From Gelidibacter salicanalis (GTDB lineage: Bacteria > Bacteroidota > Bacteroidia > Flavobacteriales > Flavobacteriaceae): 54,198 bases of DNA. Shown here one piece after another: positions 21,167-24,544 of the stretch. The first letter of the stretch is position 1. Every line of letters starts with the position of its first letter. The notes beneath the pieces were generated by a model, which saw nothing but the letters and a program-made list of their open reading frames with translations, did not search any database and was not told the origin of the DNA. The position numbers were made by a program, and so were the translations under genes. Location of the stretch: the NCBI RefSeq assembly GCF_016469035.1, contig NZ_JAEHJZ010000008.1, positions 1 to 54,198 on the forward strand, read 5' to 3'.

Positions 21167-21637
21167 TTAGGTGTTTTTACCTGTGGCTATAAATACAAGA
21201 ATGTCATTAAGACATTTGTCCAAATCGGTTGAGATTTCCTTTGACCAAAACCGAAACACGGTATAGCCCATTTCAAAAAGTTCTTGATTGACTTGTCGGT
21301 CACGTTGCATATTGCGTTCAATTTTGGGAATCCAAAATTTTCTATTGCTTTTGATGCTGTCTTTTCGCTCATCCCAATTGTAGCCGTGCCAAAACTCACC
21401 ATCAATAAAAATAGCGAGGTTATATTTTTTTATGGAGATATCAGGTTTTCCAGGTAATTTTTTACTGTCTATACGATAGCGAATGTTTTTTGACCATAAC
21501 GCTCTCCTAAATAAAAGTTCAGGTTTGGTGTTCTTCCCACGGATACGACTCATGATTTTTGAGCGTTTTTTGGTGGTATAAAAACCAGATTCTTCATTGA
21601 ATCTTGGGACGATTATTTTGGGTTCATCGTAGGGCAT
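21167..21637 (-). CDS. vsr: Vsr-like very-short-patch mismatch endonuclease
   Basis: A 156-residue nuclease of the PD-(D/E)XK-related Vsr family, which nicks T:G mismatches arising from deamidated 5-methylcytosine. It contains MSRIRGKNTKPELLFRRALW, KLPGKPDIS (catalytic Asp) and AIFIDGEFWHGYNW, then KFWIPKIERNMQRD. The Cys residues that hold zinc in E. coli Vsr are missing (GEFWHGYNW instead of GCFWHGH-type), as in the zinc-less branch. No cytosine methyltransferase lies nearby, so it is an orphan in this window. ATG at 21637 gives the normal start. The region just upstream contains a truncated copy of the repeat described at 21.7-23.1 kb. Confidence 0.88.
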   Translation of the reverse strand: MPYDEPKIIVPRFNEESGFYTTKKRSKIMSRIRGKNTKPELLFRRALWSKNIRYRIDSKKLPGKPDISIKKYNLAIFIDGEFWHGYNWDERKDSIKSNRKFWIPKIERNMQRDRQVNQELFEMGYTVFRFWSKEISTDLDKCLNDILVFIATGKNT

Positions 21638-21673
21638 AACATAATGTAAGTTATGAATTATTTGAATGAATTG

Positions 21674-21702
21674 AAAATTTAGTACGCTTCTCAATAACTA
21701 TA
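21674..21702. repeat. Truncated repeat right-half in the vsr 5' flank
   Basis: The sequence around AGTACGCTTCTC (21681-21692) matches the inner right half of the composite repeat units (AGTACGCTTCTCGATAC in unit A), with decay after the match. It lies between vsr and unit A, with the same orientation relative to vsr as the intact copy has to the GIY-YIG gene. Confidence 0.55.
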
Positions 21703-21714
21703 ATATATAAAGTT

Positions 21715-21954
21715 TGACAGTTCGAGTGTCCGGAAAGCTCCCACGAGTATTTTAAGAATCGATAATAATTTAAGCTTTCGGGATGTATCGAGAACCGAGT
21801 GTCCTGAAAGCTTCGGGAATGATTTGATAAACGAAGATTATGTTAAAGCTTTCAGGATGTATCGAGAACCTTAGGTTATTAAATTTTAAGTTTTAGTACG
21901 CTTCTCGATACTATTTCCAATCCCTGCCGGGCTTGCAAATCACTCGAAGTGACA
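21715..21954. repeat. Composite repeat unit A
   Basis: Left end 21715-21728 (diverged), duplicated left arm (two GTATCGAGAACC copies, at 21785 and 21859), 26-bp AT-rich spacer, right end CACTCGAAGTGACA at 21941-21954. Confidence 0.85.
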
Positions 21955-21966
21955 GTGTGTAACGTT

Positions 21967-22459
21967 TGTCAGTTCGAGTGTCCCGGAAGCTTCTGGGGTG
22001 TTTTAAAAATCAATAAATTTATTTTAAGCTTTCGGGATGTATCGAGAACCTTTCTAGCTTATCATTAATCCGTTTTACCAAACCTCTTAAATAGCATGAG
22101 TTTACTTGAACTTCTTCTTTGCCCGATTAGGTAACTTCTCAAATTCATTATTGATCAAGGCTTCTTTTTTTGCTTTTGACCATTTTTTGATCTGTTTTTC
22201 AATCATGATAGCTTGATTTGGATCCACAAACTCTTGGTAGAACACAAGGATTAAAGGTCGTCTATTATGTGTATAGCTTTCTCTATATTTGCCAGATTGA
22301 TGTTCCACAAACCGTTGTTCAAGGTTTGATGTAAACCCAGTATAATAGGTTTCATCCGAGCATTCTAGAATATAGACGTAGTATGATTTCATGTTTAAAG
22401 ATACGCTTCTCGATACTATTTCCAATCACTATCGTGCTTGCAAATCACTCGAAGTGACA
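21967..22459. repeat. Composite repeat unit B, carrying the GIY-YIG gene
   Basis: Left end TGTCAGTTCGAGTG at 21967-21980, single left arm ending GTATCGAGAA (22039-22048), then about 358 bp holding the nuclease gene, then TTCTCGATAC (22407-22416) and right end at 22446-22459. In the other units the same space is only about 26-30 bp. Confidence 0.85.
22102..22392 (-). CDS. GIY-YIG single-domain endonuclease
   Basis: A 96-residue GIY-YIG nuclease-domain protein (UPF0213/YhbQ-like size). The fold motifs are visible: YYVYILECSDETYYTGFTS (GIY and YIG equivalents), the Arg in EQRFVEHQSG, and the catalytic Glu in AIMIEKQIKKWSKAKKEALI. The tail is Lys-rich and may bind DNA. The ATG at 22392 lies next to the repeat. 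A TTG at 22425 inside the repeat would add 11 residues. The gene sits between the inverted halves of repeat unit B. Known single-domain GIY-YIG proteins are nucleases of uncertain role. A role in mobilising or maintaining the repeat is my inference. Confidence 0.9.
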   Translation of the reverse strand: MKSYYVYILECSDETYYTGFTSNLEQRFVEHQSGKYRESYTHNRRPLILVFYQEFVDPNQAIMIEKQIKKWSKAKKEALINNEFEKLPNRAKKKFK

Positions 22460-22471
22460 ATGTGTATCGGT

Positions 22472-22714
22472 TGTCAGTTCGAGTGTCCCGAAAAGCTTCG
22501 GGAATGTTTTGAGAATTGTTAATTACATTAAGCTTTCGGGATGTATCGAGAACCGAGTGTCCCAATAGGTTTCGGGAATGTTTTGAGAATTGTTAATTAC
22601 ATTAAGCTTTCAGGATGTATCGAGAACTTTACGCTATTAAATTTCATGTATAAATATACGCTTCTCGATACTATTTTCAATCACTGTCGTGCTTGAAAAT
22701 CACTCGAAGTGACA
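22472..22714. repeat. Composite repeat unit C
   Basis: Left end 22472-22485, duplicated left arm, short spacer, right end 22701-22714. Its spacer keeps 19 of 21 bases of the GIY-YIG start region (22641-22661 against 22386-22406), including ATTTCATGT, although the gene is absent. Confidence 0.85.
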
Positions 22715-22729
22715 AATGTGTGTATCGGT

Positions 22730-22969
22730 TGTCAGTTCGAGTGTCCCGAAAAGCTTCGGGAATGTTTTGAGAATTGTTAATTACATTAAGCTTTCGGGAT
22801 GTATCGAGAACCGAGTGTCCCAAAAGCTCCAAGAATGTTTTGAGAATTGTTAATTACATTAAGCTTTCGGGATGTATCGAGAACCTTACGTTTTTAAATT
22901 TTAAATTTTAGTGCGCTTCTCGATACTATTTCCAATCACTATCGTGCTTGAAAATCACTCGAAGTGACA
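22730..22969. repeat. Composite repeat unit D
   Basis: Left end 22730-22743, duplicated left arm, AT-rich spacer without gene, right end 22956-22969. Left arm nearly identical to unit C. Confidence 0.85.
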
Positions 22970-22981
22970 ATGTGTGTCGGT

Positions 22982-23147
22982 TGTCAGTTCGAGTGTCCTG
23001 AAAGCTCCCACGAGTATTTTAAGAATCGATAATAATTTAAACTTTCTGGATGTATCGAGAACCTTACGTTGTTAAATTTTAGGTTTCAATACGCTTCTCG
23101 ATACTATTTCCAATCACTACCGTTCTTGAAAATCACTCGAAGTGACA
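22982..23147. repeat. Composite repeat unit E
   Basis: Left end 22982-22995, single left arm (closest to the first arm of unit A), spacer, right end 23134-23147. This is the shortest unit, ending about 30 bp before the ahcY terminator. Confidence 0.85.
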
Positions 23148-23227: not shown

Positions 23228-24544
23228 TTAGTAACGATAGTATTCTGGTTTGTAAGGACCGTCTACAGCAACACCAATATATTCAGCTTGCTCATCACGC
23301 AACTCAGTCAATTCTACACCAATTTTTTCTAAGTGCAATTTGGCTACTTTTTCATCCAAATGCTTTGGCAACATATAGACTTTGTTTTCGTAAGCATCTC
23401 TGTTGGTCCACAGTTCTAATTGAGCCAAAGTCTGGTTAGTAAACGAGTTACTCATTACAAAACTTGGATGGCCAGTAGCGCAGCCTAAATTCACCAATCG
23501 TCCTTCAGCCAAAATGATGATGTCTTTTCCGTTTACGGTATATTTATCAACCTGTGGTTTGATTTCTACCTTCGTGTCACCATAATTTTTGTTCAACCAC
23601 AACATTTCAATTTCATTGTCAAAGTGACCAATGTTGCAAACTACCGTTTTGTCTTTCATCATTTCAAAGTGCTTCCCTTGAACGATGTCTTTGTTTCCTG
23701 TAGTTGTGATCACGATATCAGCATTAGCGACAACGGTTTCAAGTTTTTTAACTTCAAAACCATCCATAGCTGCTTGCAATGCGCAAATTGGATCTATTTC
23801 AGTCACCGTTACAATACTTCCCGCTCCCTTAAAAGACGCTGCTGTACCTTTACCAACATCACCATAACCACAAACAACAACGCGTTTTCCTGCCAACATT
23901 AAATCTGTTGCACGGCGTACAGCATCAACCGCACTCTCACGACAGCCGTATTTGTTGTCAAATTTAGATTTGGTTACAGAGTCATTCACGTTGATTGCAG
24001 GCATCGATAAGGTACCGTTTTTCATACGCTCGTAAAGTCTGTGAACGCCCGTAGTTGTTTCTTCGGAAAGTCCATTGATACCTTCCATCAACTCAGGATA
24101 TTTATCAAACACCATGTTGGTTAAATCACCACCATCATCTAAAATCATGTTTAATGGTTGTCTGTCTTCACCAAAGAATAAGGTTTGCTCAATACACCAG
24201 TTAAACTCTTCCTCAGTCATACCTTTCCAAGCATATACGGGTATGCCAGCATCAGCCATTGCCGCCGCTGCTTGGTCTTGAGTAGAGAAAATATTACAAG
24301 AGCTCCAAGTTACTTCTGCTCCAAGAGCTGTTAAGGTTTCAATCAACACAGCCGTTTGAATGGTCATATGCAAACATCCTGCAATGCGCGCACCTTTAAG
24401 TGGCTGAGAATCGCCATACTCTTCACGTAGGCTCATCAACCCCGGCATTTCAGCTTCAGCCAGTTCAATTTCTTTTCTTCCCCAAGCCGCAAGTGACATG
24501 TCTTTGACTTTATAAGGTACATAAGGCACTGTTTTCGTATTCAT
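23228..24544 (-). CDS. ahcY: Adenosylhomocysteinase
   Basis: Hydrolyses S-adenosylhomocysteine to adenosine and homocysteine, closing the methyl cycle. 438 residues, full length for the form without the plant/bacterial insertion. It shows [16 protein letters not shown], substrate-site [16 protein letters not shown], the NAD-binding [39 protein letters not shown] and the C-terminal [10 protein letters not shown] that reaches the partner subunit. It starts at ATG 24544 and is divergent from the phosphopantetheinyl transferase gene. Confidence 0.98.

Follow-up and report, generated by a model that had tools for sequence, protein, structure and literature searches.

We propose, with a probability of roughly 0.72, that a small GIY-YIG nuclease of Gelidibacter salicanalis and the CGTC/TGTC-like REP repeats around it are an enzyme and its cognate repeats, the gene occupying the spacer of an inverted dimer formed by the very repeat that the enzyme recognises. 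The locus lies in a stretch of 54,198 nucleotides, here called the window. We are highly confident that gene and repeats form one system. Recognition and cutting of the folded repeat by the enzyme are probable, and it is plausible that the nuclease makes the repeats mobile. The proposal is built on features that can be observed directly: the architecture of the array, the complementarity within the foot of the repeat, the linkage of gene and repeat, the agreement of the repeat's tag with the protein tree, and presence and absence at one genomic site.

An array of composite dimers with a nuclease gene inside

Five composite units make up the array, and, as an earlier note on this DNA had claimed, they have imperfect outer terminal repeats and a perfect inner inverted repeat, a description borne out by both the unit ends and the inner 10-mers. 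The features of the locus are these:

21167 to 21637, minus strand: vsr-type mismatch endonuclease, left neighbour (TIGR00632, E 4.5e-41; start placed at an internal Met)
21671 to 21696, no strand: degenerate remnant of a right half, at the array's left edge
21714 to 23147, no strand: the array as a whole, five composite palindromic dimers (REP-type repeats paired in inverted orientation)
21714 to 21954, no strand: unit 1, with a nested pair of left hairpins, a spacer of 33 bp and a right hairpin; left tag TTGACAG
21967 to 22459, no strand: unit 2, with a left hairpin, a 358-bp spacer that holds the GIY-YIG gene, and a right hairpin
22102 to 22392, minus strand: GIY-YIG nuclease gene, 96 aa from ATG (Pfam PF01541, E 3.2e-17)
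22472 to 22714, no strand: unit 3, with a nested pair of left hairpins, a spacer of 35 bp and a right hairpin
22730 to 22969, no strand: unit 4, with a nested pair of left hairpins, a spacer of 33 bp and a right hairpin
22982 to 23147, no strand: unit 5, with one left hairpin, a spacer of 33 bp and a right hairpin
23228 to 24544, minus strand: S-adenosyl-L-homocysteine hydrolase, right neighbour and anchor of the empty-site comparison (PF05221, E 1.4e-139)

A unit runs from its left tag through one or two hairpins ending in GTATCGAGAAC, then a spacer, TTCTCGATAC and a second hairpin, to CTCGAAGTGACA, which forms the right end of all five units; the left end is TGTCAGTTCGAG in four of the five and TTGACAGTTCGAG in unit 1. 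The inner 10-mers are perfect throughout the array, GTATCGAGAA occurring eight times and TTCTCGATAC five times because units 1, 3 and 4 each have a second, nested left hairpin, which the earlier note had missed. It had correctly placed a GIY-YIG gene, now backed by a Pfam match, in the spacer of the second unit, and had put the gene-less spacers at 26-30 bp; measured between the inner 10-mers, the spacers of units 1 to 5 are 33, 358, 35, 33 and 33 bp, which corrects the gene-less range to 33-35 bp. With at most one mismatch allowed, TTCTCGATAC has 18 matches in the window against 2.1 expected, a count that none of 100 shuffles reached, and genome-wide it has 84 exact copies in 5.16 Mb against 3 for the reversed pattern; the window shuffles and this genome-wide excess over the reversed control together argue that the array is not a product of chance.

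The variable part of the window repeats is 34 nt long in the right hairpins and 61-63 nt in the left, the stems start without AT, and the left tail reads CTT or CGA. Folded as DNA, six window hairpins scored z from -3.5 to -0.4 against shuffles, one of the six being no better than its shuffles (z -0.4) and another only weakly so (z -1.4). Minimum-energy folds tend to pair the left-foot TCGA with its right-foot counterpart, so that more than one pairing register may be open to the foot.

The coding start of the GIY-YIG gene is most likely the ATG at 22392, which yields the protein of 96 aa. A longer open frame of 107 aa reaches a TTG at 22425, inside the repeat, and PF01541 matches residues 15-87 of that frame with 63 bits against a curated cut-off of 22.6. 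Y7, Y17, G19, R27, H31 and E65 are invariant in a 48-row alignment of homologues, and among them we take Y7, Y17, R27 and E65 to be the conserved active-site Tyr, Tyr, Arg and Glu of the GIY-YIG superfamily. A fold search with the predicted structure (mean pLDDT 84.6) returned only two matches with E below 0.001, both of them UPF0213 NMR structures (PDB 1zg2 and 1ywl), and after these a weaker match to Slx1 (E about 0.01). A sequence search of solved structures ranked the same two first (1zg2, E 5.9e-17; 1ywl, E 5e-12), making these UPF0213/YazA-type GIY-YIG proteins the closest solved relatives of the window protein by sequence. To our knowledge, no repeats are linked to either of them.

The repeat foot accompanies homologous genes

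When 60 genomes were searched, the source included, matches of 91 to 63% identity to the window protein were found in or beside the same repeat, and homologues of 47-58% identity had mostly other repeats in their flanks (ten loci, by eye), for example TGTCA-GGCT-GAG-CGCAG-TCGA-AGCC. Common to both repeat forms is [T/C]GTCA-N4-GAG...TCGA-N4'. We searched for the foot as N4-GAG-x-TCGA-N4', leaving the tag unused, requiring exact N4 pairing and allowing at most 55 nt between GAG and TCGA, a limit that the window's own left hairpins (61-63 nt) exceed. In the best 80 named loci of 459 relatives, a foot lies within 400 bp of the gene in 77 and on both sides in 67, and the remaining three (L178, L181 and L182) have, by eye, a repeat with mismatches; the earlier note had set the flanking of close homologues by such repeats as a test of its reading, and the outcome favours it. 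The 400-bp flanks of the 80 homologues contain 327 feet, where 30 dinucleotide shuffles average 2.2, and a [T/C]GTC tag precedes 299 of the 327; distant control pairs more than 1.5 kb away show a foot in 8 of 144. Five altered control feet gave 0 to 5 matches; another, 'TCG...TCGA', gave 142, which we attribute to the inner inverted repeat within these dimers. Among loci L070-L099 (n = 30), a foot occurs within 1.5 kb in 18 of the 18 with at least 46% identity (16 of them with a [T/C]GTC tag) and in 5 of the 12 below 46% (3 of them tagged).

The foot is constant among homologues and its four outer letters vary, the letters on the two sides covarying so as to pair. At 298 of 422 tagged GAG sites, TCGA and the exact N4 complement follow within 55 nt, and N4 and N4' are complementary in 52% of 577 within-site tag-TCGA pairs as against 12% between loci. 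With TTC/GAA fixed (n = 223), base 1 is a G-C pair in 122 cases, C-G in 76 and C-C in 10. A further 4-bp stem is found in 208 of 337 variable parts, and a short class with a variable part of 4-6 nt accounts for 80 of the 337 feet and lies near other homologues.

Two further observations concern the genes themselves. One homologue (L146:3001-3288) has an in-frame stop codon and still has the foot on both sides, and is probably a decaying copy. Tandem trios of small GIY-YIG genes, spaced about 300-400 bp, occur at G034:C1:190095-190912 and G316:C34:259588-260606, those of G034 being 36-39% identical to the window protein.

The tag follows the protein tree

We placed tags and feet on a quick tree of 99 homologues, in which 41 of 96 inner branches are unresolved; 93 of the 99 rows carry a tag label and 96 a foot label, the window's labels having been entered by hand. 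The tag base (T or C) changes 6 times on this tree, compared with a mean of 24.3 and a minimum of 18 in 500 shuffles. The foot triplet changes 19 times (shuffle mean 31.2, minimum 28), and within the TTC class of 61 rows the tag again changes 6 times (shuffle mean 19.5, minimum 13). As a pattern in sequences, this agreement would fit specific recognition of the repeat by the protein, and would equally fit physical linkage alone.

Three cases of two loci in one organism occur among the 80. Flavobacterium profundi has L140 (CGTCA) and L148 (TGTCA) on different contigs and with different repeats; F. luminosum has L173 and L194, also on different contigs, both TGTCA with different N4; and in Winogradskyella algicola L135 and L145 share one contig, both among CGTCA repeats. 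When flanks of 3 kb or less were compared for the 80 loci, the 81 gene loci fell into 48 synteny groups, with 57 of 3240 locus pairs sharing a flanking frame. At one locus of Tamlana sargassicola (L126), a homologue and CGTC-tagged repeats lie within 3 kb of the same S-adenosylhomocysteinase gene beside which the Gelidibacter repeats are TGTC-tagged, which could mean either that the tag changed in a coordinated way at a single site or that two insertions took place.

Repeats and gene in the source genome and across the family

Ten loci examined in the source genome show arrays or smaller groups that share their outer and inner constant pieces. Across its arrays (L042-L058), inner stems are alike within an array and different between arrays, and tag and foot stay constant. 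We placed 82 of the 84 exact copies of TTCTCGATAC against open frames, leaving out those near C100:995 and C284:906; 77 lie outside frames of at least 100 aa, and the five inside are isolated and about as many as chance would give. The genome has eleven GIY-YIG matches, and only the window's sits in such an array. A search for the foot at the other ten (L002-L011) found none, and on this and the scarcity of feet at the low-identity loci above we reject the idea that all small GIY-YIG genes are linked to the repeat. Eight Y1_Tnp matches (L062-L069) have neither foot nor 10-mer within 1.5 kb, which counts against repeats driven by a Y1/RAYT enzyme; the comparison with REP elements and their RAYT enzymes drawn in the earlier note remains apt as an analogy.

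In the 299 family genomes, TTCGAGTG-N(12-42)-TATCGAGAA is present in 134 and totals 1577 occurrences, against 5 matches of the reversed control. At least three repeats are found in 48 of 48 genomes with a close gene and in 47 of 251 others, where a close gene means E 1.4e-41 or less, a threshold set after the table had been seen, and where the test takes the genomes to be independent, an assumption that does not hold. The four genomes next past the threshold are G318 (E 2.2e-41), G322 and G127, with one repeat each, and G257, with 13. Within-genus comparisons made by hand go in the expected direction in 11 of 13 cases and in the opposite direction in 2 (sign test, p 0.011). The other refuting outcome named in the earlier note, repeats amplified to the same extent where the gene is lacking, was not found as a rule, though the tie between repeat and gene is not absolute: among 13 many-copy, gene-less genomes checked besides G007, five (G101, G312, G292, G259 and G124) keep 6 to 26 repeats, and their GIY-YIG matches are all long proteins of 459-608 aa (E limit 1e-8). 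These five, lacking a small GIY-YIG match, lead us to reject a strict requirement of the gene for the repeats; their repeats are either relics left after gene loss or the work of another enzyme.

Within Gelidibacter the contrast can be followed at a single site. Ten genomes (genus inferred) have 51, 56 and 51 repeats in the three with a close gene, 9 in one without, and 0 in the other six. At the window's site there are five units and one gene in the window itself, two gene copies in G001 and in G005, and two units with no GIY-YIG gene in G007; in six genomes there is no array in the 1.5 kb beside the S-adenosylhomocysteinase gene, and a vsr homologue lies within 1.5 kb of that gene in five of these six. 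The two gene copies of G001 are identical over 321 nt and lie in a duplication that aligns over 1745 bases at 94.6% identity. In three Gelidibacter species, a comparison of stems showed arrays whose stem pairs are alike, which speaks for slow dispersal.

Homologues beyond the phylum

From 35 plasmid records with a homologue we examined eight, chosen for spread and without listed pathogens rather than at random. A Sphingomonas plasmid homologue has the foot on both sides with the tag GTTCA or GTTCG, its downstream repeat copy overlapping the end of the annotated gene, and two Methylobacterium plasmid records have the foot on both sides with the tag CCTCA. A Planktothrix plasmid homologue (L209) has TGTCATTCTGAGTGAAACGAAGAAT repeats on both sides, and none of the fetched flanks of the Variovorax, Cupriavidus and Acetoanaerobium plasmid homologues contains a tagged foot. 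A homologue is also present in 24 phage records. The Planktothrix homologue, with its TGTCATTCTGAG-type repeats, is placed between a type IIL restriction enzyme gene and the DISARM gene drmA, and in Sinorhizobium (L205) a different palindrome, GGATTCCTGTGACAAGCACAGGAATGAGGG, was seen by eye on both sides of the plasmid homologue.

A possible mechanism and its rivals

How might a nuclease and its repeats maintain each other? Each repeat opens with a tag, in most cases [T/C]GTCA, and continues into a hairpin with a conserved foot, N4-GAG...TCGA-N4', and an inner stem that is free to vary. In the mechanism we propose, such a repeat would fold when single-stranded, whether on the lagging strand, in DNA taken up by the cell or in an extruded cruciform, and the nuclease would then recognise tag and foot and cut next to the tag. 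If the cut were then mended by recombination with copies nearby, arrays could expand, contract and occasionally spread, gene included. Because GIY-YIG enzymes act by hydrolysing DNA and would not be expected to reseal the strands, any spread would depend on host repair. Recognition, single-strand cutting and the expansion, contraction and spread of arrays through repair are what we infer from the patterns above; we saw no target-site duplication, and likewise no cleavage, excision or insertion.

A 2025 paper reportedly describes small GIY-YIG site-specific single-strand nucleases, Ssn, with cognate multicopy NTS repeats in Neisseria, and these nucleases are said to cleave single-stranded DNA only, in a site-specific manner. 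It is possible, if distinctly less probable than our main reading, that the window's enzyme is an Ssn-like nuclease of this kind, with repeats that serve the host, for instance by marking where incoming DNA is cut in natural transformation, and with immobile arrays that grow by tandem recombination. Such an enzyme would share recognition and cutting with the mechanism proposed above, and the odds of the two overlap; where they differ is in the purpose of the repeats. The Ssn/NTS system, as reported, resembles the window's in linking a nuclease of the same superfamily to a multicopy cognate repeat that is similarly tagged, and immobile arrays would be consistent with the recurrence of alike stems in three Gelidibacter species. 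Neisseria dRS3 repeats are, moreover, CGTC-1 elements according to section 6 of a survey of such repeats (PMC3733652). However, the patchiness of the system within one genus and the many genomic places it occupies look more like a self-maintaining element, as does the joint absence of close gene and repeats from six of ten Gelidibacter genomes. If the Ssn system is as reported, the pairing of a GIY-YIG nuclease with a repeat is already known in kind. Set beside that system, the window's displays nesting in a repeat dimer, tandem arrays, variable inner stems and tag-protein agreement across genera; what is added here may be the nesting in dimers, the array structure, a foot that covaries around an unconstrained inner stem, the match of tag and protein, and the record of presence and absence at a single site.

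GIY-YIG enzymes also include homing endonucleases, and one could imagine that a homing-type endonuclease gene invaded REP dimers spread by something else, such as a Y1/RAYT transposase. The gene does interrupt a repeat dimer, G007 has a gene-less array at the same site, and the portion of PMC6006769 drawn on here describes Y1 subclass 2.6 of Bacteroidetes as flanked by atypical secondary structures. Yet these repeats are missing from the 1.5 kb around all eight Y1_Tnp matches, repeat copy number goes with the gene, and in G000, G001 and G005 gene-less dimers closely resembling the occupied one persist beside it, where a simple homing gene would be expected to convert them; we consider this history unlikely. 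That the gene is a chance passenger trapped in a tandem array would suit its presence in one of about nine arrays of the source genome, but is most improbable and, as a general explanation, is refuted by the shuffle and distant-flank controls (77 of the 80 homologue loci have a foot beside the gene, whereas shuffles give about 2 and just 8 of the 144 distant control pairs show one).

Relation to known palindromic repeats

Returning to the reading of a nuclease nested in its own cognate repeat, the nearest described repeats are the CGTC REPs, which are palindromic, occur mostly as dimers and are clustered in Neisseriae and Wolbachia, with the tag variants TGTC and CCTC, according to the parts of the survey used here (PMC3733652, BMC Genomics 2013). 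The same parts describe a typical member as having an 8-9 bp stem, a 4-5 nt loop, complementary AT at the stem start and a CCA tail, and the repeats as apparently without a dedicated transposase. The repeats studied here are like them in their tag with TGTC and CCTC variants, their palindromic stem, their dimers and their clustering, and all three tag forms (CGTC, TGTC and CCTC) are found beside GIY-YIG genes; the window's repeats are unlike them, as far as those parts go, in their long variable part and their lack of both the AT stem start and the CCA tail. Since stem start, loop and tail do not fit, we call the window repeats CGTC-like rather than typical. The GIY-YIG enzyme is likely the partner of this repeat type, which was reported as apparently without a dedicated transposase. 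A more tentative step, for which we would give somewhat less than even odds, is that this GIY-YIG clade comprises the missing mobilising enzymes of CGTC/TGTC-tagged REPs, acting through autonomous units, a cut in the hairpin and copying by host repair, with no transposase involved.

The system also resembles REP/RAYT, as described in the portions of PMC2817692, PMC3116915 and PMC6006769 that we used, in having an autonomous gene flanked by REP-type repeats alongside many gene-less copies, and differs in that its enzyme is a GIY-YIG nuclease and not an HUH/Y1 transposase. Among the literature matches listed, from a search with most subscription papers outside its scope, none links GIY-YIG genes with REP repeats, and the part of PMC12306157 consulted mentions neither GIY-YIG nor RAYT.

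The 2013 survey, in the sections used here, left open which enzyme, if any, drives CGTC-tagged REPs (PMC3733652). A nuclease gene beside or inside repeats of this type in nearly all of 80 loci, and a tag in step with the protein tree, open the matter to direct test with one small protein and short oligonucleotides. If our proposal is true, these nucleases would be a second enzymatic solution, next to the RAYT transposases, for maintaining palindromic repeats in bacteria, and would offer a source of nucleases with differing specificities.
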